Assembly: GCA_963377175.1 (NCBI GenBank)
Contig: CAUJNA010003001.1
Span: 623,501 to 687,500 of the forward strand
DNA: 64,000 nucleotides
Direction of reading: 5' to 3'
DNA from: Effrenium voratum
Taxonomy: Eukaryota; Sar; Dinophyceae; Suessiales; Symbiodiniaceae
Below, piece after piece: positions 3,536-51,300 of this stretch (its first letter is position 1; each line of letters opens with the position of its first letter). A model generated the notes under the pieces. The model did not search any database, was not told the origin of the DNA, and saw only the letters and a list, made by a program, of their open reading frames with translations. The translations under genes and the position numbers were made by a program.

Positions 3536-3659
3536 AGGGTTGATTTAGGTGAGGTTTAGGGTTTGTTTAAGGCTCCCTTGGGGTTGATTTTGGTGTGGTT
3601 TTAGGTTTGGTTTAGGTTTGGTTTTAGGATGTTTTGGGTTTGGTTTGGGTTTGGTTTAG

Positions 3660-4150: not shown

Positions 4151-4424
4151 GGGTTGCTTTAGGTGGGGTTTAGGGTTTGTTTAGGGCTCCCTCAGGGTTG
4201 ATTTAGGTGTGGTTTTAGGTTTGGTTTTAGGATGTTTTAGGTTTGGTTTAGGGTTGGTTTAGATCAGGTTTAGGGCCAGTTTAGGGTTGGTTAGGATTGG
4301 TTTCGAGGTTGTTTTAGGGTTGGTTTAGGGTTGGTTTAGGGTTGGTTTAGGGTCGGTTTAGGGTTGGTTTAGGGTTGGTTTAGGGTTGGTTTAGGGTTGT
4401 TTTAGGGTTGGTTTAGGGTTGGCC
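4150..4424 (+). repeat. 11-mer array at the left edge of the island
   Basis: TTTAGGGTTGG units that end abruptly at about 4,424, where non-repetitive sequence starts. Confidence 0.85.
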
Positions 4425-7280: not shown

Positions 7281-7284
7281 TACG

Positions 7285-7413
7285 TTGTGGTTTAGGGTTG
7301 GTTTACGGTCGGTTTTGGGTTGGTTTAGGGTTGGTTTAGGGTTGGTTTAGGGTTGGTTTAGGGTTGGTTTAGATTGGTTTAGGGTTTGTTTAGGGTTGGT
7401 TTAGGGTTGGTTT
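7285..7413 (+). repeat. 11-mer TTTAGGGTTGG array
   Basis: The array resumes after the unique island and leads into module 5. Confidence 0.85.
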
Positions 7414-7815
7414 AGAGGTCTGTGGTTGCAGGAAAGGCTGGGGCGGTTCATGAAGGAGTGATTGGTGGTTTCAGGAAAGACTGGACGGTTTCAGGAAAAG
7501 CTGTGTGGTTTCAGGAGGTGCTGGGTGGTTTCAGAAAAGGCTGAGCGAGGCTGTGTGGTTTCACGGAAGTGTGTATGAATTTAGGAAAGGAGGTGCCGGG
7601 TGGTTTCAGGAAAGACTAGGTGGTTTCAGCAGAGGCTGTGTGGCGTGTCAGGAAAGTCTGGGGTGGTTCCAGGAAAAGCTGCGTGGTTTCAGGAAAGGCT
7701 GCGTGGTTTCAGGAAAGGCTGCGTGGTTTCAGGAGGTGTCGCGTGGTTTCCGGCGAGGCTGTGGGGTTTCACGAAAGTGTGTGTCGCATATGATGTTGGA
7801 AGTCTGATGGTTAAG
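7414..7815 (+). repeat. Minisatellite module 5
   Basis: Module copy with a short internal deletion after GGCTGTGTGGC (around 7,643) and the standard tail. Confidence 0.85.
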
Positions 7816-7819
7816 GGTT

Positions 7820-8469
7820 GATTTAGGTGAGGTTTAGGGTTTGTTTAAGGCTCCCTTAGGGTTGATTTAGGTGTGGTTTTAGGTTTGGTTTAGGTTTGGT
7901 TCTAAAATGTTTTAGGTTTGGTTTAGGTGGTTTTAGAGTTTGTTTTAGGGTTGTTTTAGGGTTGGTTTAGGGTTGGTTTAGGGTTGGTTTAGGGTTGGTT
8001 TAGGGTCGGTTTAGGGTCGGTTTAGGGTGGTTTTAGGGTTGTTTGAGGGTTGGTTTGGGTTGGTTTAGGATTGGTTTAGGGTTGGTTTAGGGTTGGTTTA
8101 GGGTCGGTTTAGGGTCGGTTTAGGGTTTGTTTAGGGTTGGTTTAGGGTTTGTTTAGGGTCGGTTTAGGGTCGGTTTAGGGTTGGTTTAGGGTTGGTTTAG
8201 GGTTGGTTTAGGGTTGGTTTAGGGTCGGTTTAGGGTCGGTTTTGGGTTGGTTTAGGATTGGTTTAGGGTTGGTTTAGGGTTGGTTTAGGGTTGGTTTAGG
8301 GTTGGTTTAGGGTCGGTTGAGGGTCGGTTGAGGGTCGGTTGAGGGTCGGTTTAGGGTTGGTTTAGGGTTGGTTTAGGGTTGGTTTAGGGTTGGTTTTGGG
8401 TTGGTTTAGGGTTGGTTTAGGGTTGGTTTTGGGTTTAGGGTTTGTTTAGGGTCGGTTTAGGGTTGGTTT
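7820..8469 (+). repeat. 11-mer TTTAGGGTTGG array
   Basis: About 55 units with runs of TCGGTTGAGGG variants near 8,310-8,350, matching a similar variant run at 110-140. This suggests duplication of larger blocks. Confidence 0.85.
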
Positions 8470-8857
8470 AGAGGTCTGTGGTTGCAGGAAAGGCTGGGGC
8501 GGTTCATGAAAGAGTGATTGGTGGTTTCAGGAAAGACTGGACGGTTTCAGGAAAGGCTGTGTGGTTTCAGGAGGTGCTGGGTGGTTTCAGAAAAGGCTGA
8601 GTGAGGCTGTGTGGTTTCACGGAAGTGTGTATGAGTTTAGGAAAGGAGGTGCCGGGTGGTTTCAGGAAAGACTAGGTGGTTTCAGGAGAGGCTGTGTGGC
8701 TTCAGGCTGGGTGGTTGTTTCAAGAAGTGGTTTCAGGAGAGGTTTGTTGGTGTCAAGGCTGCGTGGTTTCAGGAGGTGTCGTGTGGTTTCCGCGAGGCTG
8801 TGGGGTTTCACGAAAGTGTGTGTCGCATATGATGTTGGAAGTCTGATGGTTAAGGGT
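8470..8857 (+). repeat. Minisatellite module 6
   Basis: Module copy lacking several units near its end (around 8,752); same start and tail as the others. Confidence 0.85.
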
Positions 8858-8859
8858 TG

Positions 8860-9171
8860 ATTTAGGTGAGGTTTAGGGTTTGTTTAAGGCTCCCTTAGGG
8901 TTGATTTAGGTGTGGTTTTTGGTTTGGTTTGGTTTTAGGATGTTTTAGGTTTGGTTTAGGTGGTTTTACAGGTGGGTTTAGGGTGGGTTTAGGGTTGGTT
9001 TAGGGTTGGTTTAGGGTTGGTTTAGGGTCCGTTGGTTTAGGGTCGGTTTAGGGTTGGTTTAGGGTTGGTTTAGGGTCGGTTTAGGGTTGGTTTAGGGTTG
9101 GTTTAGGGTCGGTTTAGGGTTGGTTTAGGGTCGGTTTAGGGTTGGTTTAGGGTCGGTTTACGGTTGGTTTA
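8860..9171 (+). repeat. 11-mer TTTAGGGTTGG array
   Basis: Degenerate 11-mer array between modules 6 and 7. Confidence 0.85.
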
Positions 9172-9618
9172 GAGGTCTGTGGCTGCAGGAAAGGCTGGGG
9201 AGGTTCATGAAAAAGTGATTGGTGGTTTCAGGAAAGACTGGACGGTTTCAGGAAAGGTTGTGTTTTTTCAGGAGGTGCCGGGTGGTTTCAGAAAAGGCTG
9301 AGCGAGGCTGGGTGGTTTCACGGAAGTGTGTATGGATTCAGGAAAGGAGGTGCCGGGTGGCTTCAGGAAAGACTAGGTGGTTTCAGGAGAGGCTGTGTGG
9401 CTTCAGGCTGGGTGGTTGTTTCAGGAAGTGGTTTCAGGAGAGGTTGGGTGGTGTCAGGAAAGTCTGGGGTGGTTCCAGGAAAAGCTGTGTGGTTTCAGGA
9501 AAAGCTGCGTGGTTTCAGGAAAGGCTGCGTGGTTTCAGGAGGTGTCGCGTGGTTTCCGGCGAGGCTGTGGGGTTTCACGAAAGTGTGTGTCGCATATGAT
9601 GTTGGAAGTCTGATGGTT
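9172..9618 (+). repeat. Minisatellite module 7
   Basis: Full-length copy starting GAGGTCTGTGGCTGCAGG. Together with modules 4 and 10 it forms a subtype with GTATGGATTCAGGAAAGG. Confidence 0.85.
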
Positions 9619-9773
9619 AAGTTTTGATTTAGGTGAGGTTTAGGGTTTGTTTAAGGCTCCCTTAGGGTTGATTTAGGTGTGGTTTTAGGTTTGGTTTAGG
9701 TTTGGTTTTAGGATGTTTTAGGTTTGGTTTAGGTGGTTTTAGAGGTCGGTTTAGGGTTGGTTTAGGGTTGGTT

Positions 9774-10223
9774 TAGAGGTCTGTGGTTGCCAGGAAAGGC
9801 TGGGGCGGTTCGTGAAAGAGTGATTGGTGGTTTCAGGAAAGACTGGACGGTTTCAGGAAAGGCTGTGTGGTTTCAGGAGGTGCTGGGTGGTTTCAGAAAA
9901 GGCTGAGCGAGGCTGTGTGGTTTCACGGAAGTGTGTATGAATTTTGGAAAGGAGGTGCCGGGTGGTTTCAGGAAAGACTAGATAGTTTCAGCAGAGGCTG
10001 TGTGGCTTCAGGCTGGGTGGTTGTTTCAGGAAGTGGTTTCAGGAGAGGTTTGTTGGTGTCAGGAAAGTCTGGGGTGGTTCTAGGAAAAGCTGCGTGGTCT
10101 CAGGAAAAGCTGCGTGGTTTCAGGAAAGGCTGCGTGGTTTCAGGAGGTGTCGCGCGGTTTCCGGCGAGGCTGTGGGGTTTCACGAAAGTGTGTGTCGCAT
10201 ATGATGTTGGAAGTCTGATGGTT
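9774..10223 (+). repeat. Minisatellite module 8
   Basis: Full-length module. Only about 155 bp of tail and 11-mer sequence separates it from module 7. Confidence 0.85.
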
Positions 10224-10224
10224 A

Positions 10225-10751
10225 AGGGTTGATTTAGGTGTGGTTTTAGGTTTGGTTTAGGTTTGGTTTTAGGATGTTTTAGGTTTGGTTTAGGTTGTTT
10301 TAGAGGTTGTTGGTTTAGGGTTGATTTAGGGTTGGTTTACGTTCGGTTTAGGGTTGGTTTAGGGTGGTTTTAGGGTTGTTTGAGGGTTGGTTTGGGTTGG
10401 TTTTGGATTGGTTTAGGGTTGGTTTAGGTCGGTTTAGGGTCGGTTTAGGGTCGGTTTAGGGTTGGTTTAGGGTTGGTTTAGGGTTGGTTTAGGGTTGGTT
10501 TAGGGTCCGTTTAGGGTCGGTTTAGGGTCGGTTTAGGGTCGGTTTAGGGTTGGTTTAGGGTTGGTTTAGGGTTGGTTTAGGGTTGGTTTAGGGTTGGTTT
10601 AGGTGGTTTAGGGTTGGTTTAGGGTTGGTTTAGGGTTGGTTTAGGGTTGGTTTAGGGTTGGTTTAGGGTTGGTTTAGGGTCGGTTTAGGGTCGGTTTAGG
10701 GTTGGTTTGGGCTTGGTTTAGGGTTTGTTTGGGGTCGGTTTAGGGTTGGTT
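10225..10751 (+). repeat. 11-mer TTTAGGGTTGG array
   Basis: About 45 units. The order of variants resembles 1,100-1,840, again pointing to block duplication. Confidence 0.85.
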
Positions 10752-11072
10752 TAGAGGTCTGTGGTTGCCAGGAAAGGCTGGGCCGGTTCATGAAAGAGTG
10801 ATTGGTGGTTTCAGGAAAGACTAGGTGGTTTCGGGAGAGGCTGTGTGGCTTCAGGCTGGGTGGTTGTTTCAAGAAGTGGTTTCAGGAGAGGTTTGTTGGT
10901 GTCAGGAAAGTCTGGGGTGTTTCCAGGAAAAGCTGCGTGGTTTCAGGAAAGGCTGCGTGGTTTCAGGAAAGGCTGCGTGGTTTCAGGAGGTGTCGTGAGG
11001 TTTCCGGCGAGGCTGTGGGGTTTCACGAAAGTGTGTGTCGCATATGATGTTGGAAGTCTGATGGTTCAGGGT
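10752..11072 (+). repeat. Minisatellite module 9 (5' deleted)
   Basis: Module copy missing about 130 bp of the early units; the later half and the tail are intact. Confidence 0.85.
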
Positions 11073-11074
11073 TG

Positions 11075-11684
11075 ATTTAGGTGAGGTTTAGGGTTTGTTT
11101 AAGGCTCCCTTTGGGTTGATTTAGGTGTGGTTTTAGGTTTGGTTTAGGTTTGGTTTTAGGATGTTTTAGGTTTGGTTTAGGTGGTTTTAGAGGTTGTTTT
11201 AGAGGTTGTTTTAGGGTCGGTTTAGGGTTGGTTTAGGGTTGGTTTAGGGTTGGTTTAGGGTCGGTTTAGGGTCCGTTTAGGGTGGTTTTAGGGTGGTTTC
11301 AGCGTTGTTTGAGGGTTGGTTTGGGTTGGTTTAGGATTGGTTTAGGGTCGGTTTAGGGTCGGTTTAGGGTCGGTTTAGGGTTGGTTTAGGGTTGGTTTAG
11401 GGTTGGTTTAGGGTCGGTTTAGGGTCGGTTTCGGGTCGGTTTAGGGTTGGTTTAGGGTTGGTTTAGGGTTGGTTTAGGGTTGGTTTAGGGTCGGTTTCGG
11501 GTCGGTTTCGGGTCGGTTTAGGGTCGGTTTAGGGTTGGTTTAGGGTTGGTTTAGGGTTGGTTTAGGATTGGTTTAGGGTTGGTTTAGGGTCGGTTTAGGG
11601 TTGGTTTAGGGTTGGTTTAGGGTCGGTTTAGGGTTGGTTTAGGGTCGGTTTAGGGTTGGTTTAGGGTCGGTTTACGGTTGGTTT
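11075..11684 (+). repeat. 11-mer TTTAGGGTTGG array
   Basis: Array with many TCGG and TTTCGGG variants between modules 9 and 10. Confidence 0.85.
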
Positions 11685-12115
11685 AGAGGTCTGTGGCTGC
11701 AGGAAAGGCTGGGGAGGTTCATGAAAGAGTGATTGGTGGTTTCAGGAAAGACTGGACGGTTTCAGGAGGTGCCGGGTGGTTTCAGAAAAGGCTGAGCGAG
11801 GCTGTGTGGTTTCACGGAAGTGTGTATGGATTCAGGAAAGGAGGTGCCGGGTGGCTTCAGGAAAGACTAGGTGGTTTCAGGAGAGGCTGTGTGGCTTCAG
11901 GCTGGGTGGTTGTTTCAGGAAGTGGTTTCAGGAGAGGTTGGGTGGTGTCAGGAAAGTCTGGGGTGGTTCCAGGAAAACTGCGTGGTTTCAGGAAAGGCTG
12001 CGTGGTTTCAGGAAAGGCTGCGTGGTTTCAGGAGGTGTCGCGTGGTTTCCGGCGAGGCTGTGGGGTTTCACGAAAGTGTGTGTCGCACATGATGTTGGAA
12101 GTCTGATGGTTCAGG
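11685..12115 (+). repeat. Minisatellite module 10
   Basis: Last full module. It uses the CGCACATGATG tail variant also seen after module 4, so 2,804-4,150 and 11,685-12,700 look like copies of one larger block. Confidence 0.85.
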
Positions 12116-12289
12116 GTTGATTTAGGTGAGGTTTAGGGTTTGTTTAAGGCTCCCTTGGGGTTGATTTAGGTGTGGTTTTAGGTTTGGTTTAGGTTTGGTT
12201 TTAGGATGTTTTAGGTTTGGTTTAGGTTTGGTTTAGGGTTGGTTTTCGGTTTGGTTTTGGTCAGGTTTAGGGCCAGCTTCGGGGGTTCA

Positions 12290-12700
12290 TTCGGGGTTCA
12301 TTTGGGGTTAGGTTTGGGTTGGGGGGCGGCAGCCCCCCCCATGATGTTGGGAAGGGGATGTTGGGAAGGGTGATGATTCAAACAAAGGTACGCTTAATCT
12401 AAAAACACAGCGGGGGGTCGGGGGGGCGGCGGCCGCCCCCATGATGTTGGGAAGTACGGGAAGCCCAATCAGGAAAGGCCGGGTGGTTTCAGGAGGTGCC
12501 GGGTGGTTTTAGGAAGACTGGGTTGTTTTAGGAAAGGCTGCGTGGTTTCAGGCAACGTTGGGGGGGGGGGGGGGTTCATGCAAGATTGGTTGGTGGTTTC
12601 AGGAGAGGCTTTGAGGTTTCAGGAGGTGCCGGGTGGTTTCAGGAAGACTGTGTGGTTTCCGGCGAGGCTGTTTGGTTTCAGGATAGGCGGGGTTTCAAAA
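12290..12700 (+). repeat. Variant satellite unit with GC hairpins, second copy
   Basis: Near copy of 3,660-4,150, with the same two GC hairpins and the same GATTCAAACAAAGGTACGC segment. A poly-G run lies at about 12,560-12,573. Repeat sequence stops at about 12,700. Confidence 0.8.
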
Positions 12701-33300: not shown

Positions 33301-36300
33301 CAAAGCCGTCGGGTGGATCGCCCACTGGGATGCGACCTGGCGAGTTTTAGGGGTACCGCTTGGTGTGTGTTTTCCGGGTTTGAATTTTGGGTTTGTCTTT
33401 TTAGTGTTTTGTTTTTTGTCTCAACATGAACCCCGACATGGGTGGTTTCCCTGTGGCGTTCTTTCAATTCACCCCAAAAAGGGTGTCCTCAGAAAAGAAG
33501 CACGGCATGGTGGCCCAGTGATCGCATATCGCAAAAGGAACATTTTGCTGGTTACCAGCAGTGGTCACTGACCTTCCGCTTGGTCATCAACCCGTCTAAG
33601 ATGATGGTGACGAGCAAATCAAAGGGAGAACTGTCTATGTGAGTCTTGAGATGGAGCGGAGAGATAACCCTAAGCCTTATGGGAACCAGGTCCATGCCCC
33701 ACAAAAGGAGCTTTGACTTTGGCACATGTCGCAAAATGGTTGTCGCTTGGGTTTCCCTTTGAACCAAGCCCACAAACGGTTACCCTCAACCTGACTGACG
33801 TTCGGGTTCTGGATTTGGGCCATTTTCCTTTTTTAAGGTACCGGGTCCCGAACGTCCGGTTCCATGTGAAAAGGGTGGGACAGTATAAACAAACAGGGTT
33901 CGCACATGTTTGCACCTTGCTCTCTGCAGTTCTTGCTTTGAAGTTGTCACCCCCCCAAAGGTACAGTCCTTGCTTTGAGGGTACCTCAAAAACCATGGCC
34001 TCGTGAGCCACAGGCTTCTGTTCTACAGGAATCTCCCCATTTCAGCTCGAAGGAAAGAAAGCAAATGGGGAGGAACCCTCGAAAATACCGGGTCCCGAAC
34101 GTCCAGTTCCATGTGAAAAGGGTGGGAGCGTACCTGAAAAATCGAGTTCCAGGTTGTTTACTGTGTGGATCTGGGATCCGGGCTGACGCCTCGAAAGGTA
34201 CATCGAGCTGGGGGAGTTAGGCGGTGAGGCGAGGCATGGCCGTCGTCCTTTGGGCTTTCCGTTAAACCAACCCTCGAAAAATGACACACCCACAGACACA
34301 CGCATGCACGCACATACGCACACGCGCAAACCGGGTTGTGAGTTGTTCTCTTGCAATGGTAAAACGCGGTGTTTGGACTTGCTGTTTGAGAGTGCTTTCC
34401 TTTGTGCCTCTGTATTTGGGGTTCACAGGGATGCTCACACCTAGTAGGAAGGATTATCAAGAACCATTATAATTTTAATGATTCCTCTTAGGAGATCCAT
34501 GACCACAGGCCACATAAGGAGTCTTGACCATGACGCATATCTTAATCGTGTTTTTTCTGCTTGCTGTCCTGCTACACCTGCACAGGGCCGCAGCCATGTT
34601 ATCTGCCTATTGTATGGCGAGTTCACCAGGTAAAGCGAGCTCGCAAGGAAAGTTCCTGGTGATTCCTGGTTTCGAGTTTTGGATTTGTTGCAACACAGTT
34701 TGCAGATGGTTGTGAGACATCTCCTTTGTTGCGGCCACTTCCCTTGGTGGCTCCCAGCCATCCGGTTCCTTAGCTTGTTAGCCTTTTAGTGTTTAGTGGT
34801 AGTTTCCATTTCACCCGCTAAAAGTTGAATTCACTTTTCGCGGGGGATCAGAAAACGAGGGTTGCGCCCACTTCCTGCGAGCAAAATGCTAACATCTGCA
34901 GCTTTGGGTATGGGCCAAAATTAAACCACCAGGGGACCACAGGTTTTAGTCATTGTTTCCATTTACCAGGGTGCCATTTTGGTTACCTATTTTTGACCCA
35001 CAGACATTTGATCGGCTCAAGCTGCACTCGCTCAACTCGACTCCGCGCGTTCCGTCATGGACATGCTCAAGAAGCTCGACTCGGAGGCGGTGTCAGAGCT
35101 CTCCACAGAGGTCGCTGGGTGCAACATTTGCGGTGTGTGTGTGTGTGTGTTTGTTGAGGCTGCTCCTTTTGTTTATGGATTGTAAATTTAAACCGAAACC
35201 AAGAGGACAAAATAATCAAAGGAAGTTTATGGGCTAAAGCGTTAACCGTAGGTGGTCGCTTGTCTTGACTCTTAATAAGTATCCACTTGGGCCACCATTT
35301 TGGCTCAAGTGGACCTTTTGATCTTTGGTCGTGTGATTTGAAATCTTTCTTTCCCCTCTCTCAAAGCCATGTACGCCCCCGCCTACGCTGGTGCCGCGGT
35401 AGCAGAGGCTAAGGCTAAGGCAAAGGCCTCCATGGCAAAGTACCTGGCGAGCCTCGTGAAGAGGGAGGAAGAAGGATGGACCGTTTTGGCTGCCGAGGTC
35501 CCTCAGGCACCTGACGAGCGTTTCTTCTCCAGCGCAGATGAGTTGGAGCAGACCCCTCTTGTCCCGGCCAAGCGCAAGGCAGAGGATGAGCCGATGGAAG
35601 ATGCAGCCCCTGGGGCGGCGCAGGTGCCGAAGGCCCTGACACGCCCCCCAGGGGCGTTCCTGGAGCTCCTGAACCCGCCGGAGGAGGACGTGCCCATGGA
35701 GGAGCTCCGGGCGCAGGACGAGAAGGAGCTGCCGATGCCCAGGTCCCCCTCGGCTGCAGCCCGCTTGGAAGAGACCCGCCTGGATGCCCGGGCAGACGCC
35801 AAGTGGCAGAGGCGCCGGGAGCTGATGGCGAAGGTCAAGGAGCAGGCGTCCTCGGAGGAGGATGAGAACCCCGCAGCCCCCCCGCCGGGGGGGAGCGTGT
35901 TCACCAAGGCCCTCAAGGTCTCGGAGGGCCTCTACCAGTTCAGCGACGACCAGATGGCGGGCAACTTCCCTTGCTTCGATGCGACCACGGCCAATAGGCT
36001 CCGCCGACTGCAGGCCAGGGACGTCCAGCGGCTCCTGCGAGGCTTTGAGGGCCCCCAACTCAAGCAGGGGGGCCTGGAGCGCGTTGTGGAGGCCTTCTAC
36101 ATCGCCAAGATGAAGTACGAGCATGAGGCCCGGCTCAGCACCCCGGGACAGCAGGTGGGCAAGCGCGCTGGCTTGGGGTACGGGGGCCTGGAGAACCGCC
36201 CCCTGGGCAAGGTGCCCACATCCTGGATCTGCCCCTGCTGCACCATGCCCTGGGTGAAGAAGGGCGCCACGAAGTGCATGGGGTGCGGCAAGAAGACGGA

Positions 36301-39300
36301 GCCCATTGACATGGCGACCAACTCGGCCACCCTGGAGATGGCGGGCACGCATTGGCAGTTGACGGTGGATGACCAGGGCAATGCGGTCTGGACGGCGGCC
36401 CGGTCCGCAGGTGCCGAAGGCCCTGACACGGACCGGGCCCGCGACCTCAAGCTCAGTGCCTCGGTGGACGTCAGCGAGCTGGCCACCGACCCGATGGCCT
36501 GCGAGAACCCGGACCAGGCCAGCTTCTCGGACTTCGTCCCCTCCTCGGTCCGGGCGGTGATCAGGAACTGCCCCATGGAGCTGGACGAGGAGTTTCTGAC
36601 GGCCCCACCGGGGGAGAGGCCCCCATTGCCAGGCGACAAGGAAGAGGGCCAGGAATGCAGAGCCTTCCACCCGTCTGCGGTGAAGGCCTTCAAGATTCAG
36701 ACCCGGCTCAACGCCACCACCATCGCCCAGGAGGAGGCCAAGAAGGCGGACCAGGTGGAAGCGGTGGAGCGCTCCGCGGCGGTCCTCCACGAACTTCAAG
36801 GGGGGGCCATTGACGGAGGAGGTGATGGAGGTCTGCTCCTGAAGAACCTGGACTTGGACCTCTTCCGTGAGAAGCTGCTGGACAAGCTGGGTGCGGACTG
36901 GGGGAGACCCACACCGGAGCTCCTCCAGGCCCAGACCACCGCGGAGGAGGCGAAAGCGAAACACCAAGCCAGACAGGCGAAGGGCGCCCTCGAAACCAGG
37001 ATGCTAGCGCCCATCGCGCCTCCCTTCAGTGCGTGGCCCAGTGAGGTCCGGGTCGCCATTGAGACTGGGGTCTTCGAGCCGACAACGGCATGGAGGGACT
37101 TCAGTATGGACGACCTCACATCGCTCACGGACTCCTACCTTGAGGCCAAGGCGGTCATCTCGCTGGGTAGGAATCCCTTCCCGGCGGCCCTCCTGTCAGA
37201 TCTGCCGGACCTGGCAGGGATCCCCATGCCAAAGGCGGGGTCTGGTGCGGCGCGCCCAGGTGCCGAGGGCCCTGACAGGCCGCCCACCATCTCCTCAGCC
37301 TCGGGCTCTGGCGTGACGAGCTCAGGTGCCGAGGGCCCTGACAAGCCGTCCGCCACCCCGGTGGGGGGACACCAAGGACCCGGAGGTGCAGCTCGCGGTC
37401 CTGCGCTGGATGATGAGCAAACGGGTCGGAGAGGTCCGTATCTTTGCGGGCCGCTGGGTCCGACGACCGGGCCCGGTACACGTCCCGGATTGGGCGGAAA
37501 ACCTCACCAAGGTGAATCCGGAGGCGTTGGAGAAGGGTACGCATCCCAGGAACCACCAGGTGGGTGGACTCCCCTGGGCCAGGTACTCCGTGGATGAGTT
37601 GAACCAGCAGGCGAAGGCGGGGGACCGACCCTACCCTGGGGACCTGCGATCCATCTTTTGGGCTGCCCCCCACGATCCGGATGAGGATTGAGTCTGGGAG
37701 TCTCTGCCTCTGCTGCAGGGCCCTAGGCAGCGGGGCCCAAGAAACAAGGCCCAGAATCAGACCCGCCTGGAGGGCTGGGAGACCCTGAAGGAGGACGCGC
37801 GGTGCTTCCTGAAGGAGGAGGGCCTTCCGTTTCCGCAGACAGGACCGGAGTGGCGATTGGTCTACCGGGCCATGGGCAAGGTCCTCGCGGCCCGGGCCTT
37901 CCTCACGGACACCCCGGCGGAGGTGATGCAGCTCCCGGTCCAGGACGTGGCGGACTCCAAGGAGCAGATGATCCTGCGGGCGGTATGCGACGAGCGCATC
38001 TCGGTCCCGGTGGAGAGCCTCCAGCAGTTCCCAGAGGTGTACAAGGCCCTCATGGACCGCATTGGAGGCCCGGGGGCCCTGGCGGAGGTGAAGGTCAACT
38101 GGCGCTGCAACACGAAGCAGTGGTGGGTCGGCGCAGTCCCCGACTCAGTGGCCCCCTCCATCTACCGCAAGCTCGGCTACACCAACGACATGATCAAGCT
38201 GATGGGCCTGGACCCCTCCGCCCCTGGGTGCCGGACAGGTGCCGATGGCCCTGACATCCGCCCCAGGGGAGGCGAGGGCGATGAGGGGATCGTTTACCCC
38301 CCCATCACGGCGGACAACGTCCACGGCGTGGTGGGTAAGGACTACCGGAAGAAGAACTATCCGGTGGAGATGAAGCATGTCTTCTGGGCGCACATGGAGT
38401 GTGGCCTGGTCCTGAGCTCCGTCACCCCGTGGGAACTCATCCCGAAGACAAAAGGGGAGACCCGGGGGGGCTACATGTGCAAGTATTGTAAGGGGTACTG
38501 GCGTGCCGGGGGAGGGGGCACCCGCCTCCTCCAGATCCGGGCCGGCAAGGCCATCTTGCAGCTGGTGTTGGACGAGCCGCCGGAGGGCCTCTACAACCGC
38601 TGGGTGAAGGAGCGGCTGGAGTACTACCGCCGGGTGGAGCCCTCGGCCCCGTTGCGGGACGTCTCCATCGTGGACCAGAAGGTGCCTAGATTCAGATTCA
38701 GCCAGGCCACCCAGACAGGCCACGTCTCCAATGCCATCTGGGAGCTGATTCTGCGGAATCCGGAGGCTGCTGCGCTCAAGCGCATAGATGACATCGCGAA
38801 GAGGGCCGCGTGATGATGCGGGACAACGCCATCTTCCGGCACATCATCCCGAACCGCGGCCATCCGGAACGGATGCGCAGCGCACCCTGGGGGTGGGACA
38901 GCTGCCGAAGGCGCTGATATCCCCCCCCCAGGGAACAGCGCAGGCCCAGACCTGCACCAGGCGAGGAAAATTGGCGCGGCTTGGGCTAATCCGGGGTGCG
39001 CCTGGTTCCCCTCTCTTGTTTGGTTTTCCCTTTTCGGGGCGGCTCCCTGGGTCCCCCCTTTTTCCCCCGTTCCCTCCGTTTCGGGGTTGACTTTGTGGGG
39101 GTTTGGGGGGCCCCCCCCCCTGTTGTTTTGTTGGGGTTGGCACCTAGGGACTAAGCCCCCGGCTCGAGTGGATCATGATGATGTGGAGGCCCCGCCTCCC
39201 TTCCCCGTTTGGGACGACCTTCCTAGGGGCGCCAACCGCGCTCCAGTTGATTTTGCATGACCTGGGATTTGCACCAGTGCAGTCGGACGGGGAAATCCTC

Positions 39301-42300
39301 GTGGCGTGCTGCCTGGAATGGGTCAAGAAGGACAAGGTCGCCAACCCGGATGCGGTGGTCTTTGACCCGCGGCCGTGGACACGGATCGTGGGGCTGGCAC
39401 CTGACGGCAACCACGTCCTGGTGGCCTCGGACACCTACAACTTGATCCTCGCGAGGATGCTCGGCTCCCAACCACAACCGCTGGAGGAGGCGGATTTGGA
39501 GCTCGCTACTAAGACCCTGCAACAACTTCTGTTTCGTGCGGCAGGCGCCAGGCAATCGCACACCTATTCTCCACTGGAAATGGAACAGGCCATCCGGGAC
39601 CGCGAAGAGTGGATCCTTTCCGGATCGATTGAGGCCCCGGATGTCCTGGCAGTGGCCAACAAGTGGCGGCATTGGAAACCAGGGAAGATCAAAACCCAAT
39701 TGCCGACATCTCAGAGAGCGTTGGAACAACACTTGAGGGCCAGGTGGTTGGAACGCCTCCTGGGATACTTCATCCCCTTCCGGCACCAGATCCCCTACAT
39801 GCACCAGGTGATGGGGGCCAGGGAGCTGGAGGAGTTTGGCCACCTCTTTGGTGATGCCCGGTTCCGTACCATCCGGGCACACTGCTTGGCCTATGAGGGC
39901 ATGCGCAAGATCGGCTTCCAGAACCTCCCCTGGACGGCTGGCGACGTCCGGCACCTCATGAACCAGGCGGTCACGTTGGAGGTCACCCCGGCGAAGCTCC
40001 AGAAGTGGTGGGGCACTTTAAAGTGGCTCTCCATTAAACTCGGCATGCTCAACGTTGACGAACACAAACAACTCCTGGAGAAGCGGAAAGCCATCCAGGA
40101 GACGCTGGTGGACACCCAGGTCAAGCCACAGCGCAAGGCGGTGGTTCCGACCCGGGCAATTGTTTGGGCCCTGGAACAAGGGGCAGAAGGGGCCCCGCCG
40201 GAGAACCGGGTCCCGGAACTGACCAAAGCAGTGGACAGGTACATCATGGCGATGGCCAGGTTCAACCTGGCCTGCAGTGCGCGCTTCAACGACGTGCAGC
40301 ACACCTCGCCGCAGACGGTCAAGTCCACGAGCAACACCCTGGAGCTGCTGGCCTGGCAAACGAAGACCACGTCGGCAGTGGCCATCAAACGGAACCCGGT
40401 CCCGCTCATCGCCCCATTGTTCTCCTTCTCGGGGGCCAGATGGTGGATCCCCTTGGAGCGGTGGTGGAAGAGATTCAGGGCCTCGGAGGAGTTCCGCGAG
40501 ATGGACTACCTGATCCCCACGATCAACAAGGACAGGACGGGCTTCATCCCCCGCCCAGGAACCCCAGACAGGTCCCTGAGGTGGCTCAAAGACGCCTTGG
40601 GGAAGCAGGGCGCGCCAGCCAAGGACGTGGCTGAACTCTCATGGTACTCCTTCCGGGTCTTCATGCCGGCATTCCAGGCGCACATACCGAGGGACCAGCG
40701 CCAGTACCTGGGAAACTGGTTCAAGGAGTCCACGGCGGATGTCTACACCCGGGAGAAGCGACACGTGGTGTGCTCCATCTGGGACCAGGTCCTCCAGAAG
40801 CTCCCGTCCATGCAACTCGAGGCAGGGAGGGCGGTCCGAGTCGACCTCGGACATGAGGACTGGGAGGACAAGGTGGAGTGCCCGGCCTCACCGAAGGCCT
40901 TGTTCAAGGAAGTCCCGGACACGCCGCCCTCGAATGCCAGCTGGGATGTGATCCCCGCCAACAAGCCGGCCATCACCAAGATGGCTGCGGATGAGGTGCC
41001 CCCGCCTCGGGGTCCACTGACGGTGGTAGCCACCACGGCCCGAAAGGGTCCCACCAAAGCTTACAGCATGCACCTACTGGACACAGATGGAGTCACAGTG
41101 GGGTGCGGCTGGAGGCCGGGACCGCTCAAGATTTCGGAGCTGGCGGAGCAGGACTTCCATGCTGAGCCGGAGGTGTACCTGGGATGCACCAGATGTTTCC
41201 GGCATTTCACCTTCCCGAACACGTGGATGGCCGTGGAGCCCTACGCAGCACAGGACTCCGAGGCCTCCATCTCCCTCTCCTCGGACACCGACGAGAGCGT
41301 GGACACTCAGTCGGACAAGGAGGCGGTCGTCCTCCCGGAAATTGAGTGAGGGGTGGATAGCGCAGGTGCCGAGGGCCCTGATACGCTTCCCCCCATGCCT
41401 CAAGGCAAGGAGGCAAGGGGGGGGGGGGGGGGTGCCGAGGGCCCTGAGATGTTCTCACCCCTATCCCAGGGGGCCAGTGCCCCGAGAGATGTCCCCGGGC
41501 ATCCCAGGCGGCGGGTTGACGGGGTCCGCACCGGGTGGACCGCAGCCGGACCGCTGGACGCACAGGTGCCGAGGGCCCTGGAATGCGACAACGGGACCAC
41601 ACGGCATACGTGGAGGGAGGACCTCCCCAACGACCAGCTCGTCCGTTGGTATTGGCAGCTGATGCGATCCGTCCGTTGGGGATGGCATCAATTCTACTCC
41701 CATCAGCTGCTGAGGGGAGCTGCCCAGTGGAGCTGGGCAATCCTCCCATTTTGGCACTAATCCTTATGCGGCGTAAAGGATGCACCGTTCGCGATTAAGG
41801 TACCAGTAGCACCAATGTGGTGCTTTGAAGAGTCTGGGCTAAAGCGTTAACCGTAGGTGGTCGCTTGTCTTGACTCTTAATAAGTATCCACTTGGGCCAC
41901 CATTTTGGCTCAAGTGGACCTTTTGATCTTTGGTCTTGTGATTTGAAATCCCGCCCACCCACACCATGGCGGCGACACCAGATGAGTTGGTGGCACCACC
42001 ACAGGAAGTTCCTGGAGTGTACACGGACGCAGTGGCTAAGCTCCACAAGACCGCCAGGAACCTCATGGTCCTCAAGGGCATCCCGTGGTTCATCCAAGCG
42101 ACACTGTCGGATGAGGGCTTTGTCTCGATGGAGGACCTCGCGACCCGGTGGGACTCGCCCGACCGTGCAAGGGAGACGGCGCCGGGGGAGTTGGGCTTCG
42201 CCCCCAACAACCACCACTACACGGATGTGACCTCCCGGCTGATCGCGGCCCGCATGTTCCAGGTGGTTCACGCGGCTCAACGATCCATGGGAGTTGGGGC

Positions 42301-45300
42301 GCATGCAACAGCGGGACCCGGGCCACACACGCCCGGGGACACCGCCCCGAATCTCACGGTCTCGTGCGAACGGGGACAGCTGGAGAGGGTTTGGGAGGAG
42401 AAGACCAAGCTCACCAAACCCAAGCTGGCCCTTCAAGGAAGCGACCAGCTGGTGAAGCGCCAGTTCAAGCTCTGCGCAGGAGGCGAGATCGGTTTCATCC
42501 CCATGAAATACCTGGTAAGCGCACTCCCGGAGCCAGGAGAACGGCCATGGAAGACCACTAAGAAGAGCACGGTTGATGGCTGGGACCGGGAGGATGAGGT
42601 GGAAGAGCGGGGCGAGCCCAAAACTCGCCACCAGCTCGAGAGGATGCACGCGGTGTTCCGCAACACCCTCCTCATGTGCGTCCTCTCGTTCCCGCAGTTC
42701 GGCCAGTTCGACATCACCCGGGAGGACTTGGAGAGCTGGTACGAGTGGTTCTATGGTGAGGACATCGGGGGCCGTTTTCCCCCGCCAGAGGACCACGTCC
42801 TGGCAATTGCCGAACGCAACGCATGGCGAAAGATTCACGAGAAGATGCATGAGGGCAACACCCTCAAGGCGGCCATGCTGTCGGTCAGGCAGGACACATT
42901 GTTCTGGACACGGGAGGTCTACGAGAAGATCAAGCCCTTTTCCAGGGGCCGCCCACCAACCAGGACATCCATGGACTACGCACCACCTCAGAAGGGCAAG
43001 AACAAGTCCAAGCACAAGGGGAAGCCCAAGGGCAAGCCTGGGAACAAAGGGAAGGGTAAGCCCCCCCACCTGAACAATCAGGCGTCCCGGGGCGGTAGCA
43101 AGCAGGCAGCCACCGACCCGAAAGGGAACCAGTTCTGTAACAACTGGATGCGCGGGCGCTGCCCGGGCAACTGCGGCCGCACCCACAAGTGCAACCTCAT
43201 CCTGGCAATGGGCCGCATCTGCCTGGGGGACCACCTCCCGCAGGACTGCCCGGGTTGACTAGGGGCGCTGACCCCTACCCCCCGGGAGGCCTCACCCGGG
43301 AGGGCGAGAAGGGGCGCAAACGCCCCAAGCAGCCACAGAAGCCCCCTCCTGCAGGTGCCGAGGGCCCTGACACAGGGGGGGACAGGCCAGGTGGCGGCCA
43401 TCCTCGGCGGAACAAGGATGGGGGCGGCAGAACCAGCGTGTACAACGCCCTCGCCGTGATCAGAACAGCCACACAACCGGCACAACGGCGGCGCCTCAGT
43501 CCCGAGCCACAGGTGCCGAGGGCCCTGATAGGGCGCGGACGGGACGGTTCCCCGCAGGTGCTGAGGGCCCTGACACGGGGGGCCGCACCCAGAAGGCCCG
43601 AGTGCCGGATAACTGGCAGCACACCGCAACGCCAAGGGACACTCCCAGGAGGCAGCCGATCCCACTTCCGGCGCCCAACATCATCAAGCAGGACCCGGTG
43701 GTTTTCCACAAGAGCTCGGTGGGGCTGAATGAAGGGGGCCAACGCCTTTCAGCTACCCCCCTGACAAGTCCAACGGAGCCGTCACCGGGATTGGATATCT
43801 TCCCGTGGATGGAGAACATCCCTGAGCGTCTGGTACAGCGGTTGAGATGGACACAGGGCACATCGCCCAAAGTTCCATCCAGTGGGCCCATCATTGTCCT
43901 GCTCTATGCAGGCAAGGAAGACCCAACTTCCTTGGACAGCTGTCTTCATGCCAACTACCCACACCTTTCCAGCATGGTGGTGGCGGTAGACATCCTACGG
44001 TCTGGACCCAAAGGGGACCACGATATGCTCCAACCCGAGCTGTATGGAGCTCTTTGCACGGCAGCAAAGCAGGGCCGAGTGGTCTTCATTGGAGGAGGAC
44101 CCAACTGCAGGACATGGTCCATCCTGCGCCACATACCAAAACCGGGGGCTCCCACCCCGGTGCGAGGGCGCACTCCAGAGACACTCTGGGGCCTTCCACA
44201 CCTGGACCAGGCCGCCCAGACTCAACTTGATGATGACAGCATCCTCATTCTGAGACAGATGTACATCACCAGCCTGGCAAGGGCCTCACGAGCGGCGGTT
44301 TCTCTGCCAGGGCCCAGGTCCTTCCTGGAACACCCGGAGGACCCAGTGGTGAGCAGCTCGCTGCCCAAAGCCAAGGAATGCTCATCCTTCTGGATCACAG
44401 AGGAGGGGCAGCTTTGGATGGAGGAGAACTCCTTGACAGCAATCTCCTTCGACCAGTGCCGCCTGGGCCAGCTGGTCAAGAAGGCCACTACGCTGGCCAC
44501 GGATCTCCCGATCCAGGACTGGGATCAAATGCGGTGCACGCATCAGTCACATGTGGGCACCAACGAGTCCTCGACTCTTAGCAGATACCCTTGGGATATG
44601 ATGGCAGGCCTGGCCAAAGCCATCGCTGTGTCACTCGCAGCGCCGGGGCACATCCGGATCCCCTCACAACTTCCGGGAAACCCCAAGGGACCACCTAAGG
44701 GGCGGGGGTCGGACCCCCCGGAGGGCCATTCCCCCCGGGGAAATCGGGGGCCCAGTCAAGGAGGCGGTCCCTCCTCATCACACCAGGGCTCAAAGCCCGG
44801 AGGCAAGAACGCCCCGAAGCCCCGCCTGCACGGGCAGTTCCACCCTGAGGCAGACACCGTAAGCCCTCGTGGAACAATGAACCCAGACTTCCCATCTCCC
44901 ATGCCCCCGATGGCCGGAGATGCGGAACAACTGGGGAAGGAGGGACAGGGGGACCAGGTCCTGGACCGCCCCGAATGCCTGCCCGCCTTCAGGGTCCCAC
45001 ACCTCACTGACCGGGCGGCGATTGTCCAATTGGGCTTCCGCTCACGCCCCCTGAGGGATGGGGGGGGAAAACCTTCCCCAGGGAGGCTCAACCCCCCTTT
45101 TCGGAGAATTTCCCCATTGGCTACTTTGGGCGCCCTGATCATGACCCTTACCCGTCCCTGGATTGACAAGGTCCGAATGTCCCTGGCATCAGGTGCCACC
45201 ACACACCCCTTCCAGGAAGCCGACCTCGAAGAGCTGCGGGCTATCCTAGGACCGAGGCACCTCCATGAACGATGCCCAGGACAACCCTTCCTCCTGGACT

Positions 45301-48300
45301 TAGTGTCGCACTTGGCATCCCTTTCAGGTGACCCTGATTGGGAGTTCCCCCTAACACTGAAAGAGGGGGTCCCCTTGGGAGTCTCGGACCCTACCTTGAC
45401 CTCCCCGGGAGTTTGGCCCACTAAGGAGGAGCTTAAGGGAGAAGCCTGGCTGGGGGAAGATCCCCCCCCGCCAGTGGCTCATGATAACTACCCAACGGCT
45501 GAACTCTTTGCCAAGGAAATCGAATCAACCTTTTACGAGGAACGAGCCTTGGACATGGTGGACGGGCCCTTCACTCGCTCCGAGGCGGCAGAGAGGTGCC
45601 GCTGCAAACCGGAGGAACTTTGCCCGGGCCCCCTTGCAGGGATTGATGAGTCGGACAAGATCAGGACGATCTATGATGGCTCAAAAGGGGGAGCAAACGC
45701 ACACATCCAGGCTCACACGGAGGAGAAGACCACCGCACCGATGGTTGGAGACTGCCTCCATGCCATCCATTGGCTCAGGACAGCGGCGGACCATCCTCAT
45801 CTACTCCGAGCCCCATCCTCGGGCACCGATGAGGAACCTCGGGATGTTCGCCAGTCGGTGCAGGGGCAGTCGCCAGGTGCCGAGGGCCCTGAGAGGGCCC
45901 CCCACAGCACCAGCCCGCCCCCAGGTGCCGAGGGCCCTGATAGGGGCAGGCGGATTCAGGGAAGGGGCCACCCAGGTGCCGAGGGCCCTGATCGGAGGGC
46001 CCCCATTCCCCCCAACCCTCCCAGGCACGGAACGCCCTGGAAGGAGCAGGGGGGAACCCCTGACGTGGCAGCCGCCGACACAGGGGGAAACCTTCATCAT
46101 CCTCAAGGCGGATGTCACCAAGGCCCACAGGCGCATAAAAGTGCTCCAGAAAGACTGGAAATACCAGGTGGCCTGCATCCAGAACCGGTGGTGGGTCAAT
46201 AGAGTGGGCACGTACGGCATGGCCTCGGCACAACTGTACTGGGGAAGAAAGGCATCCTTGGTGCTCAGACTCTTGTACTACATCTTCCCTCAGGTAGACT
46301 GGCACTTAGTTTTTGTGGACGACTACTGCTGGGTCCTCAGATGCAGCAGGGCGGACTGGGACGCCACAGCCATCCTGGCCACTCTTCTGGCGCTGGGAGT
46401 CCCGCTTTCTTGGAAGAAGACGGCGCTCTCCCCGGTCAATACCTGGTTGGGATTCGTGGTGGACCCCATCACGCCCTGTGTGCTGCTGGCTCCAGTCAAG
46501 CACGTCATAATCCTGGCCACTCTCAAACGGTTGGCCCAGGGGGACATCTTTACCAGCAAGGAGGTGGAACAAGCCCTGGGCCGGATTCAATGGGCTACTT
46601 CGGCGTGTCCATTGACGAAACCTTTCCTCCAGCCCTTCTGGAGCTGGAAGAAGGCCTGCACCACTTCGGGCAGGCCACCGAAACTGGTTCGTGCTCTGGC
46701 CATCCTTCTGGGGAAGCTCTTCAACCAGAGGTTCCCATTGGCATCTCCATTTGCTCCCACACTTCCATGGACGGGGGCATCTGATGCGGGAGCTGGCAAA
46801 CAGGCGGACCATGCATGGGTTGGTGGTTGGTGCTCGGACGTGCCCAACCCCGACAAGTCCCGAGTGAAGTGGTTCCAACACAGAATCACACCGGAGGGCG
46901 AGCCGTGGGCCTTCACTACTGGGGACCCGCAGCGGGCGATAGCGGCCTTGGAGCTCTTCGGCCTCCTCCTTTTGGTGAGGGCTGTTCTGCTTTGTGCAGC
47001 CGGCTCGGCTTCTCACACTAGGATTCTGGTTGCTAGTGATAACCAGGGAAACGTTTTCTCCCTGCTTAACGATTCCACTCGCAGGATGCCCAATGCGGCC
47101 ATCCTCATGGAAATTGTGTTAACACTGCATGACCACCAGGTCATGTTAGGACCGTCGCATGTGAAGCGCGACTTTAACACATGGGCGGATGAACTTACTC
47201 ATCCGGACCCGCAATTTCCGACTGAGAACCGGGTCTTCCCCTCAGTCGAAAGCGAATTGATCAAGCTGATCTTCGCTACTTTCCTTCCTCACCCATGATG
47301 CCGGGAGGGCATCGCTTTGAAGAGTCACAAGAAACTTCCGTAGTACTGGAACTAAATGAGCTAGCTGCTTTGACATATAGCTATGACAGGTAGCTAGCAT
47401 GACAAATAGATAGCTTTGACATATAGCTAGCTTGATAAGATAAAGATGTTTTCCTAATGCTAAGTTTGTATGATACATAGATAGTTTTGATAATACAGCC
47501 AGCTAATACCTAGATGTTTTCAAGCATAGATTCTGTGGAAAGGCGCGTTAATTTCGCGTTAATTCTCTGCAGTTGGATGCAAAGATGCAAGAAAACGTTG
47601 AAGCAGCGTGAATTGGCTTCCGATCAGGCAACCATCTTGATATGGACAGCTTGTATCGAGGCGGTCTCGAACGTCTCGAACGTGGGTTCGGAACGGACCG
47701 GAACGGTTCGGAGACGGCCCATTACACTGCTGGGGTTGTTTCCGTAAGGTTTGAGTTGCGTGGCAGGCGCAGTACTTTCGCAAGGTCAGGTATAGGTTTC
47801 GTGGCGGGCGCAGCACTTTCGTGCGGTCAATCACAGATTTCGGGGCAGGCGCGCTACTTTCCCAAGGCTCTGGATGCATTCTCTGCGAGCTGGGGACTGG
47901 TAAGATGCAGAAAACGCTGGCGCAGTGCGTGAATTGGGCTTCCGGACAGTGCGCAAACCACCTCGGTCGCGATGCCTGTACGGGAACGGTCTCGAACGGT
48001 CTCGAACGGTCTCGAAACGGGTTCGGAACGGTTCGGAAACGGTTCGGAGACGGCCCATTGGCACGGCTGGCGTCAAAGGTTTCGTAAGGTTTAATCTGCG
48101 TGGCAGGCAAGCACTTTCGCAAGGTCAAGTATGTGATTCTGTGGCAAGGCGCAAGCACTCTCGCAAAAGGTCAAGCTGCGATTTCGTGAGGCGTTTGCAG
48201 CACTCGTGCCACTCTCTGCGAGCTGGGGGATGGCAAGATGCAGAAAACGTTGGTGCTGTGCGTGAATTGGGCTTCCGGACTGTGCGCAAACCACCTCGGC

Positions 48301-51300
48301 TGCGACGCCTGTACGGCGGCGGTCTCGGAACGGTCTCGGAACGGTCTCGGAACGGGTTCGGAGACGGGCCCATTGGCACGGCCGCGCGAAGGTTTCGCAA
48401 GGTTTGAAATGCGTGGCAGGCGCAGCACTTTCGCAAGGTCAAGTATAGATTTCGTGGCAGGCGCAGCACTTTCGCAAGGTCAAGTATCGATTTCGTGGCA
48501 GGCGCAGCACTTTCGCAAGGTGCTGCGTCCACTCTCTGCGAGCTGGGGGATGGCAAGATGCAGAAAACGTTGGCGCTGTGCGTGAACTGGGCTTCCGGAC
48601 TGTGCGCAAACCACCTCGGCTGCGACGCCTGTACGGAGGCGGTCTCTGAACGGTCTCGGAACGGGTTCGGAACGGGTTCGGAACGGGTTCGGAGACGGGC
48701 CCATTGGCACGGCCGCGCGAAGGTTTCGCAAGGTTTGAATTGCGTGGCAGGCGCACTTTCGCAAGGTCAAGTATAGATTTCGTGGCAGGCGCAGCACTTT
48801 CGCAAGGTCAAGTATCGATTTCGTGGCAGGCGCAGCACTTTCGCAAGGTCAAGTATCGATTTCGTGGCAGGCGCAGCACTTTCGCAAGGTCAAGTGCCAA
48901 ATTCGTGGCAGGCACAGCACTTTCGCAAGGTCAAGTACAAAATTCGTGGCAGGCGCATCACTTTCGCAAGGTCAAGTACAGAATTTGTGGCAGGTGCGTT
49001 AATTTCTGCAAAGGTCATGCAAACTGCACGCACACTCTCAAGTCGCTACAGATTTTGTGGTACATGCGCACCTTAGCAAGGTCGCTAATACATTTGCGCA
49101 GGCGCAAGTATCTTTTGCAAGGTCACCTTCGCAGCCGTTTCGAAAATCGTAACTTTACACGGTGCACTTAAGTCAAATTCTCGAGCTGGGCTTGAAAATC
49201 GCAACTTTTAAGTACTTGTTGGTGCGCAAAGTCCACTCGCAGTCGGCTGAAAATCAGAATTTTGCTACGAAAGTAGTGCGCAAAGTCCACTTTCGCAGCC
49301 GGGGCTCGAAAATCGCAACTTTTAAGTACGAAAGTAGTACGAAAAGTCCACTTTCGCAGCTGGGGCTCGAAAATCGCGACTTTTTAGTACGAAAGTAGTA
49401 CGCGAAGTCCACTTTCGTAGCTGGGGCTTGAAAATCGCAACTTTTAACTACGAAAGTAGTACGTGAAGTCCAGTTTCGCAGCTGGGGCTCGAAAATCGCA
49501 ACTTTTAAGTACGAAAGTAGTACGCGAAGTCAACTTTCGGGGATTGAACATCGCAACTTTTAAGTGCAGAGAAAGATGGGTAGATAGATAGATCAATAAA
49601 CAGATACAGAGAATAAAGAGAACAGATTGTGGTACAGGCGCAAGCACTCGCAAGGTCGCGCATAAGATTCTGTGGCGCGCTTAAGCACCCTTGCAAAAGG
49701 TCATATCGATTCGGTAAGGCGGCACTTTGCAACGTTGCCAAATTCGCGGGCAAGGCGTGCCACCAAAAGGTCAAGTACAAAATTGCAGGCGATCACTGCA
49801 AAGGTCAAGTACAAAATTTAGGGAGGTGGCATACTTCGCGTCAGTGCAAAATCTGTGGCACGCGCGCACTTTGCAAGGTCGCACAGATCTTGTGGCAAGG
49901 CGCAAGTAATTTTGGGAAGGCTTGCCCTCCATCTGGTGGCATGCACATCTGTCTCTGGCTCAACTCCTTCGAGCCGGGGCCTGAAAAATCGCAACCTTTG
50001 CTACTTCAGCAGTACCGCGAAAATAATTTTCGCAGCCGGGGCTCGAGAATCGCAACTTTTAAGTACGAAAGTAGCACGCGAAGTCAACTTTCGCAGCTGG
50101 GGCTTGAAAATCGCAACTTTTAAGTACGAAAGTAGTGCACAAAGTCCACTTTCGCAGCCGGGGTTTGAAAATCGCAACTTTTAAGTACGAAAGTAGTACG
50201 CAAAGTCCACTTTCGCAGCTGGGGCTCGAAAATCGCGACTTTTTAGTACGAAAGTAGTACGCGAAGTCCACTTTCGTGGCTGGGGCTCGAAATCGCAACT
50301 TTTAACTACGAAAGTAGTACGTGAAGTCCAGTTTCGCAGCTGGGGCTCGAAAATCGCAACTTTTAAGTACGAAAGTAGTACGCGAAGTCAACTTTCGGGG
50401 ATTGAACATCGCAACTTTTAAGTGCAGAGAAAGATGGGTAGATAGATAGATCAATAAACTGATATAGAGATAGCTAGAGAGATAGATAGAAAGAGAGAGA
50501 AAGAGACAGAGAAACAGAAAGAGAAAGAGAAAGAGAAAGAGAAAGAGAGAAAGAGAGAAAGAGAGAAAAAGACAGAGAGAGAGAGAAGCAAGGGGCCAAG
50601 GACAGTTCTCCAAACTATAGTTGTTCACTGCTTTGAAACTTCCGCCCCCCGGCTCTGCCGGACCTTACTTGTATTAGGAGGTCCCCTCGAAAAGGCACCC
50701 CCACGTGGCTCAAACTGAGTGCCCTAGCAGCGTCCCATTTTCCATCTATGAAGCTGGGTGGATCTAGTACCTGGTTTTATGGATAGCAATGTGGGTGTAT
50801 CGTTTTAGAGGGTGCCCACTTTTGGGTTTGGGGTTTTGGGTTGGTTTTAACAGAGGAACCACCAGGACAAGGGTCCAACTCCCTATTCCGGCACATTCCC
50901 ATGTGGCTAAACCACCTGATCTTGGCCTGAACGGGCCCAAAAGGAGTCCAACTCTTGAATTCTGAGCTGGGAAGGATCGGGCAAAGTCTGCTTTAATTAA
51001 AGGGAAGCCAACACATCTTGATTCAACAACAAATGTGTTTCTAGAACAATAGGCTCGCTTCCCCTTAGACGGTCAACTTGTTGGGAAGATAGTAGTGTTA
51101 AACATAAACGACATCCGGACCTTTTCTCACCAATCTCAGTGAAGTCTTCGGTGTGAAAGCCATGTTTTGTTTTCTTCTTCTTGCGCCTTTCTGTTTTTCC
51201 TTTTTTCTTTCTTTATATATATATATACATACATACATATATATATATATATTGTCTTTCTCGGGGTTGAATCGTACCCCGGAGGTGGCCACTGAGGGCA

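Follow-up and report, generated by a model that had tools for sequence, protein, structure and literature searches.

We describe a family of retrotransposons in the genome of the dinoflagellate Effrenium voratum (assembly GCA_963377175.1; 1,155,904,702 bases, 1.156 Gb, in 3699 contigs), starting from one copy in a stretch of 64,000 nucleotides, positions 623501-687500 of contig CAUJNA010003001.1 (C2998), which we call the window. The window copy, whose coordinates 35230-47326 were confirmed, is probably a single tyrosine-recombinase (YR) retrotransposon, ~12.4 kb long as a complete unit, whose split direct repeats are arranged as A1 ... B1A2 ... B2, present in a few hundred copies and replicating by the route proposed below. 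The general plan is A1-(ORF1, ORF2, tyrosine recombinase)-B1A2-(gag-like, methyltransferase (MT)-like, reverse transcriptase (RT) and putative RNase H)-B2, where ORF stands for open reading frame. The two gene blocks with their flanking repeats are called the first and the second half; B measures ~151-156 bp at both of its places. The original prediction had described two head-to-tail segments that start with the same 116 bp and carry complementary gene sets, and both statements hold: the leaders, which start at 35230 and 41835, are identical but for one position, ORF1, ORF2 and YR lie in the first half, and the gag-like, MT-like, RT and putative RNase H regions in the second.

One unit recurs across the genome

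A and B were counted as 30-mers with ≤2 mismatches in the whole assembly. A matches at 547 and B at 414 places, and the reversed patterns, used as a control, match at 0; the element thus counted forms a family of a few hundred copies in this dinoflagellate genome. The spacing of exact copies was analysed on contigs C1-C968, which hold the first 100 places of A and of B. These contigs contain 99 A, 100 B and 48 direct B-A junctions, which leaves 51 A without an exact B upstream. Followed to the next feature, 41 of these 51 A lead to a B1A2 junction (33 at 6.2-6.8 kb) and 7 to a terminal B; one meets a further A of this kind, and two have no feature within 20 kb. After the 48 A2 it is a terminal B in 42 cases (37 at 5.3-5.7 kb) and an A1 in one, with nothing found in five. 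Twenty-one complete copies chosen from the exact lists span 12.2-14.2 kb, with a median of 12.45 kb.

The neighbours of leaders were scored for the best 40 of 583 candidates. Twenty-seven enter the first half, with B upstream in 0/27; the other 13 enter the second half, with B upstream in 13/13 (two of these, C2 and C891, were judged by coordinates only). Neither a free second half nor the reversed order was found among these best 40 of 583. Sampled pairs of B enclose the succession B1, A2 and second half in 20/20 cases, and A1 is found in the expected stretch in 14/20. Twelve B lack an exact partner: five follow the end of a second half and border on flanking DNA, five follow the end of a first half and continue into A2 and a second half, one (L107) adjoins a damaged A2, and one (L109) belongs to a short derivative; C891 would be a thirteenth and lies outside this count. 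The halves of the window copy were also compared with 20 stretches of 10 kb from 18 other copies, two of which were covered twice. Among 15 first-half starts followed over 10 kb (window excluded), 10 pass through B1A2 into the second half, two (L010, L017) carry internal deletions, and three (L011, L014, L015) end before the 10 kb are complete. The two deletion derivatives, of ~2.1 and 4.3 kb, retain A at the left and B at the right end and are possible non-autonomous forms.

The element ends TGGGCTAAAGCG and CTTTGAAGAGTC recur with differing flanks in copies that were picked by these end sequences. Two pairs of copies, L029 with L031 and L024 with L035, have the same left flank on different contigs; these are haplotypes or duplicated segments. 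In 6/6 right ends read (L010, L017, L020, L023, L027, L028), the last ~156 bp of the second half match those of the first. Both halves therefore end alike, as the original prediction had it; the shared tail, however, is the full B and not just a stem-loop plus CTTTGAAGAGTC. The second stem-loop of the window copy (GATGCC..GGGCATC) is the end of the gene block and not B, because ~175 bp of B2 are lost there. An arrangement of two tails with different stems and one conserved end was considered and rejected, as other copies show an identical B at both places.

A search for the segments alone or in the opposite order had been suggested together with the original prediction. The reversed order (B-A-first half) gives 0 exact matches to the genome-wide pattern, which mutated copies would escape; the zero does not result from a faulty pattern, because the pattern minus B fits 43 records, some of which overlap (~36 places). 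One complete A-second half-B with its own flanks and no first half exists at C69:519333-524980, so that the segments are not, strictly, never alone. This free second half can stem from A1-A2 recombination, a separate cDNA or a second RNA. The copies read include no first half that is both free and intact. A tandem arrangement in C316 (9358-21437, L116-L118) consists of a second half, B, 102 bp of B, A and a further second half, with the jump at a shared TGGGC microhomology. Further departures from the layout are a damaged B1 in C144, a diverged A2 in C455, the loss of part of A2 in C224 (L107), and the short A..B derivative in C241 (L109), in which first-half sequence stands ahead of B.

Repeats, integration and selection

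The A1/A2 difference is 1.63 within and 2.16 between copies (24 copies, permutation p 5e-5), and the B1/B2 difference is 0.50 within and 0.90 between copies (22 copies, p 6e-4). This likeness within copies points to copying between the repeats. No clear target site duplication was found at 20 copies; the matching length is 0 in 9, 1 in 6, 2 in 4 and 6 in 1. The flanks display a mild site preference, with T at -1 in 24/40 left flanks and G at +3 in 19/34 right flanks. The ratio of non-synonymous to synonymous polymorphism (pN/pS; window copy included in every sample) is 0.23 for ORF1 (12 copies), 0.19 for ORF2 (13), 0.20 for the MT-like region (10) and 0.24 for RT-RNase H (5). Both halves are under purifying selection.

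Encoded proteins

The 725-aa product of the YR frame, which has 83 database matches, is a tyrosine recombinase. Conserved in its alignment are an R, a Y, GNW and an HxxR-like motif that reads WHSFR in most relatives and WYSFR in the window. The AlphaFold model (mean predicted local distance difference test score, pLDDT, 74; predicted template modelling score, pTM, 0.42) finds Cre, FLP and XerH as best Foldseek matches with probabilities of 0.97-1.00; a sequence search of the PDB with YR gave no match. One relative, P0029, is roughly 43% identical. In another, P0021, the N-terminus of YR runs into a C-5 cytosine methylase-like stretch (E 4e-6); P0021 is probably a chimeric or interrupted copy. 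This stretch is the exception in a Pfam search of the window ORFs and their relatives, which otherwise yielded nothing above the curated cut-off.

The C-terminal part of Pol carries an RT-like VDD motif and has 310 database matches (120 among the matches listed). Pfam RVT_1 is found in 7/29 aligned Pol relatives at E≤1 (best 1e-4, none above the curated cut-off), and a PDB sequence search with Pol returns RT as the best, weak match. For RNase H there are only sub-threshold matches to RVT_3, in 2/29 aligned members. The domain assignments of the original prediction accordingly stand for YR by motifs and fold and for RT by weak matches, while RNase H is seen only below threshold. The MT-like domain (GGPNCRTWS, SFLEHP) is an N-terminal domain of Pol kept among the aligned relatives; a Pfam search of 26 Pol relatives gave no methylase match for it. 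Named relatives of the element proteins include sequences of Symbiodinium microadriaticum, Durusdinium trenchii and Polarella glacialis. No relatives came up in viral contigs, whether the query was YR, an alignment of YR or of RT, or the B|A junction.

A spliced-leader-like motif in both leaders

The spliced leader of dinoflagellates has 22 nt, DCCGUAGCCAUUUUGGCUCAAG in the part of the source available (PMC6050394). Both leaders of the element contain CCATTTTGGCTCAAG, which equals its last 15 nt; the bases before it differ from the spliced leader. In a shuffle control, 2/100 shuffles also reach ≥2 matches at ≤2 mismatches. Folding predicts a hairpin around the motif in both leaders (z -2.4 and -3.2); the motif lies 59 nt (A1) and 51 nt (A2) ahead of the first ATG. 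Relicts of the spliced leader at -50 to -100 are proposed as promoters in the same partial source (PMC6050394). Because each A has such a motif at this distance from its first ATG, A2 may double as promoter and leader of a shorter gag-pol mRNA, and an internal second promoter at A2, the other option of the original prediction, is compatible with the layout and plausible from the sequence.

One element, two elements or an internal promoter

What the copies have in common is one recurring layout and order and recurring ends, as would be produced by a single retrotransposon. The original prediction gave two options, a bipartite, two-RNA element and a unit with an internal promoter. The first would make two replicons of A-first half-B and A-second half-B, with cDNAs that the recombinase links at B|A and that mostly co-integrate. 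The ends A and B shared by both halves, the complete free second half in C69 and the tandem second half in C316 fit this proposal, although A1-A2 recombination within one copy also yields a free second half. Joining by B-A recombination of two circles would, however, be expected to give both orders and a bipartite element to leave free halves: the first-second order holds in the best 40 of 583 leaders (27 + 13) and in 20/20 pairs of B, the exact reversed pattern is absent genome-wide, and one free second half is matched by no intact free first half. The bipartite element is largely unsupported by these counts, and we regard it as quite unlikely. We are similarly sceptical of a segmented retrotransposon. 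In such an element each half would be transcribed, trans-spliced and reverse-transcribed by itself, circles would be joined and resolved at B|A by the recombinase, and the copies of 12 kb would represent the joined form. If it were true, the element would consist of two interconvertible parts and the free second half in C69 would be a product of B|A resolution.

A composite of two independent elements, joined once by chance through insertion of one at an end of its partner and spreading together since then, would account for halves that are each bounded by A and B and for gene sets without overlap. The gene sets are, however, complementary parts of one DIRS-type replication cycle, B1 and A2 abut exactly, and none of the copies read is an intact element made up of the first half only. 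YR and RT matches also occur on contigs of equal size (707052, 132550, 324411, 72991, 191208) and in the gene models s192_g33 and s192_g35, which is weak evidence of linkage because one contig is listed per cluster. Such a chance composite is improbable. Alternatively, the internal BA might be only a second promoter/terminator pair for the gag-pol mRNA, with no role in cDNA synthesis. The spliced-leader-like 15-mer in each A, 59 and 51 nt ahead of the ATG, speaks for a promoter, as does the suggestion, in the available portion of the source, that such relicts act as promoters (PMC6050394); on the other side, the likeness within copies of A1 to A2 and of B1 to B2 points to copying between the repeats, and DIRS-order models, as far as the accessible text of their source goes, give internal repeats a role in circle formation (PMC3266345). 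That promotion and termination are the sole function of BA is unlikely.

Several observations weigh against a single element with the proposed replication. One copy (L013) breaks off inside the second half, and the free second half in C69 together with the tandem in C316 implies that the halves can part or repeat. YR has a pN/pS of 0.55 (10 copies), and of its shared variants 8 are synonymous and 3 non-synonymous; gag has 0.68 (13 copies with few changes), and here 1 shared variant is synonymous and 4 are non-synonymous. Subfamilies may inflate the homogenisation test, in which 11/24 A copies are the window copy and others retrieved through their similarity to its A1. Of the other copies retrieved through the window A1, 6/10 show one and the same difference between A1 and A2 (column 97, G/T), so that equalisation does not always extend to the 3' end of A. 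At the integration sites, matches of 2 bp (4/20) and 6 bp (1/20) compare with 5.5% and 0.3% in mismatched pairs, and there may be a very short target overlap of 1-2 bp. The replication scheme is proposed here from genomic copies.

Relation to known YR retrotransposons

Kangaroo and nematode Pat1 have the Pol block ahead of the YR block, whereas the window family has the YR block first and the gag-Pol block second. The presence of a tyrosine recombinase and, by weak matches, a reverse transcriptase, together with the lack of a clear target site duplication, bears out the DIRS-like nature originally proposed, and membership in the DIRS order is well supported. Within this order, PAT elements are defined by split direct repeats A1-B1-A2-B2, and Kangaroo (Volvox) and nematode Pat1 have an internal repeat between MT and YR, according to the part of the source available (PMC4157794). 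The window family shares with them RT and YR, the A1-B1-A2-B2 repeats with B1A2 adjacent, and an internal repeat between the YR block and the block with MT, in the window an MT-like domain; RNase H, seen below threshold in the window family, would be a further common point. It differs in its size of ~12.4 kb with the extra ORF1 and ORF2, and in an MT-like domain that precedes RT and lacks a Pfam match; moreover, YR is inverted in Kangaroo and not in the window. Membership in PAT is thus supported by the repeats and fails on block order: YR stands first in the copies read, and the reversed order has 0 exact matches.

For Symbiodinium, the available part of one source describes two SymbioDIRS-Dnmt3 forms with shuffled integrase/Pol order and the layout A-coding region-B-A-B (PMC5890265). 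These and the DNMT-less Symbiodinium DIRS resemble the window family in YR plus Pol, A and B repeats and shuffled order, and probably in host group; the layout A-coding region-B-A-B and the Dnmt3 domain set SymbioDIRS-Dnmt3 apart, as the window Pol relatives have no Pfam match for Dnmt3. VIPER and TATE of kinetoplastids are likewise YR retroelements with split direct repeats, with A1 at the 5' end and B1, A2 and B2 together at the 3' end in the portion of the source at hand (PMC6681497). In contrast to this Ngaro/VIPER arrangement, in which B1-A2-B2 stand together 3' of the coding block and the same partial description places no coding block among them, the window family has the gag-Pol block between A2 and B2.

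None of the titles and abstracts among the matches listed describes an A-YR-BA-Pol-B layout in dinoflagellates, PMC5890265 being nearest. The earlier statement that no described element has this plan is nevertheless too strong, given the PAT repeats A1-B1-A2-B2 (PMC4157794) and the shuffled Symbiodinium DIRS (PMC5890265), both as far as these sources were available. To judge from the sequence, the window family has a PAT-type repeat plan with swapped gene blocks. The retrotransposon family is real and multi-copy, and its plan, though unusual, can be explained; it looks like a rearranged form of known YR retrotransposons and not like two independent elements.

Features of the window copy

The features of the window copy are collected in Table 1. 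The N-terminus of P0153, ahead of its RT, is similar by eye to that of the gag-like ORF. The Pol frame shifts upstream of RT-RNase H, inside a stretch at ~45.86-46.05 kb with three hairpin repeats.

Table 1. Coordinates of the element features in the window
Feature	Position	Strand	Basis or remark
A1, left split direct repeat / leader, 116 bp	35230..35345	+	comparison with A2; left end also read in other copies
15 nt equal to 3' part of dinoflagellate spliced leader, within predicted A1 hairpin	35295..35309	+	
ORF1	35369..37691	+	open 35342-37597, then second frame 37317-37691; frame disturbed in window copy
ORF2	37692..38813	+	similar stretch ahead of YR in gene model P0076 (by eye)
Tyrosine recombinase (YR) ORF	39172..41349	+	alignment, structure model, Foldseek
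B1, internal copy of right split repeat	41679..41834	+	ends in hairpin AGCACCA..TGGTGCT + TTGAAGAGTC
A2, internal copy of A, directly adjoins B1	41835..41950	+	
Spliced-leader-like 15-mer in A2	41900..41914	+	
gag-like ORF	41966..43258	+	terminal basic stretch and Cys/His cluster, by eye
MT-like conserved domain, GGPNCRTWS ... SFLEHP	43761..44660	+	conservation in relatives; methyltransferase identity putative
Reverse transcriptase-RNase H	46069..47298	+	weak RT matches; RNase H below threshold
B2 remnant, 12 bp	47315..47326	+	~175 bp missing in window copy

A repeat of 17-22 nt, CAGGTGCCGAGGGCCCTGACA, forms a family of 15 copies at 35618-46001, all on the + strand (34000-48500 searched). A search of the whole window with ≤3 mismatches gives 17 matches, 16 on + and one weak on -, all within the element. 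The arms vary and several are self-complementary, with a constant loop and a variable stem; the three copies that were folded have z of -3.1 to -4.4. Four other stretches contain 14-15 copies at similar positions. The repeat falls in several reading frames, and the ORF of the relative P0089 reads through it. The flanks of the window copy (35220-35229 and 47327-47340) contain an 8-bp inverted repeat, GGAAGTTT / AAACTTCC, which by eye is not a rule in the flanks of other copies. Outside the element, window positions 1-12700 hold long arrays of an 11-bp unit TGGTTTAGGGT and a 20-bp unit GTGGTTTCAGGAAAGGCTGC with a telomere-like look.

Proposed replication and implications

For the single element, we propose that a full-length RNA from A1 to B2 would be copied by RT. 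The internal B1A2 junction, where a complete A and a complete B stand side by side, would serve as bridge and as template restoring both ends. By analogy with DIRS-order models, in which internal repeats take part in circle formation according to the accessible part of the source (PMC3266345), bridging at B1A2 would close the cDNA into a circle, which the recombinase would then insert at a weakly preferred site. The blocks swapped relative to Kangaroo and nematode Pat1 may go back to a circular form with two B-A junctions that once integrated via the other junction; swapped blocks would be expected from such an event, because the present order is a circular permutation about the B-A junction.

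Kinetoplastids, the hosts of VIPER and TATE, also trans-splice a leader. In the present family, whose host likewise trans-splices, a motif resembling the spliced leader is tied to the two leaders of a retroelement. The replication of retrotransposons with split direct repeats is known mainly from models. Here, hundreds of similar copies in one genome carry gene blocks in both gaps of the repeat pattern, and these copies make the copying between A1 and A2 and between B1 and B2, the duplication-free integration, and the swap of order by integration of a circle testable from sequence.

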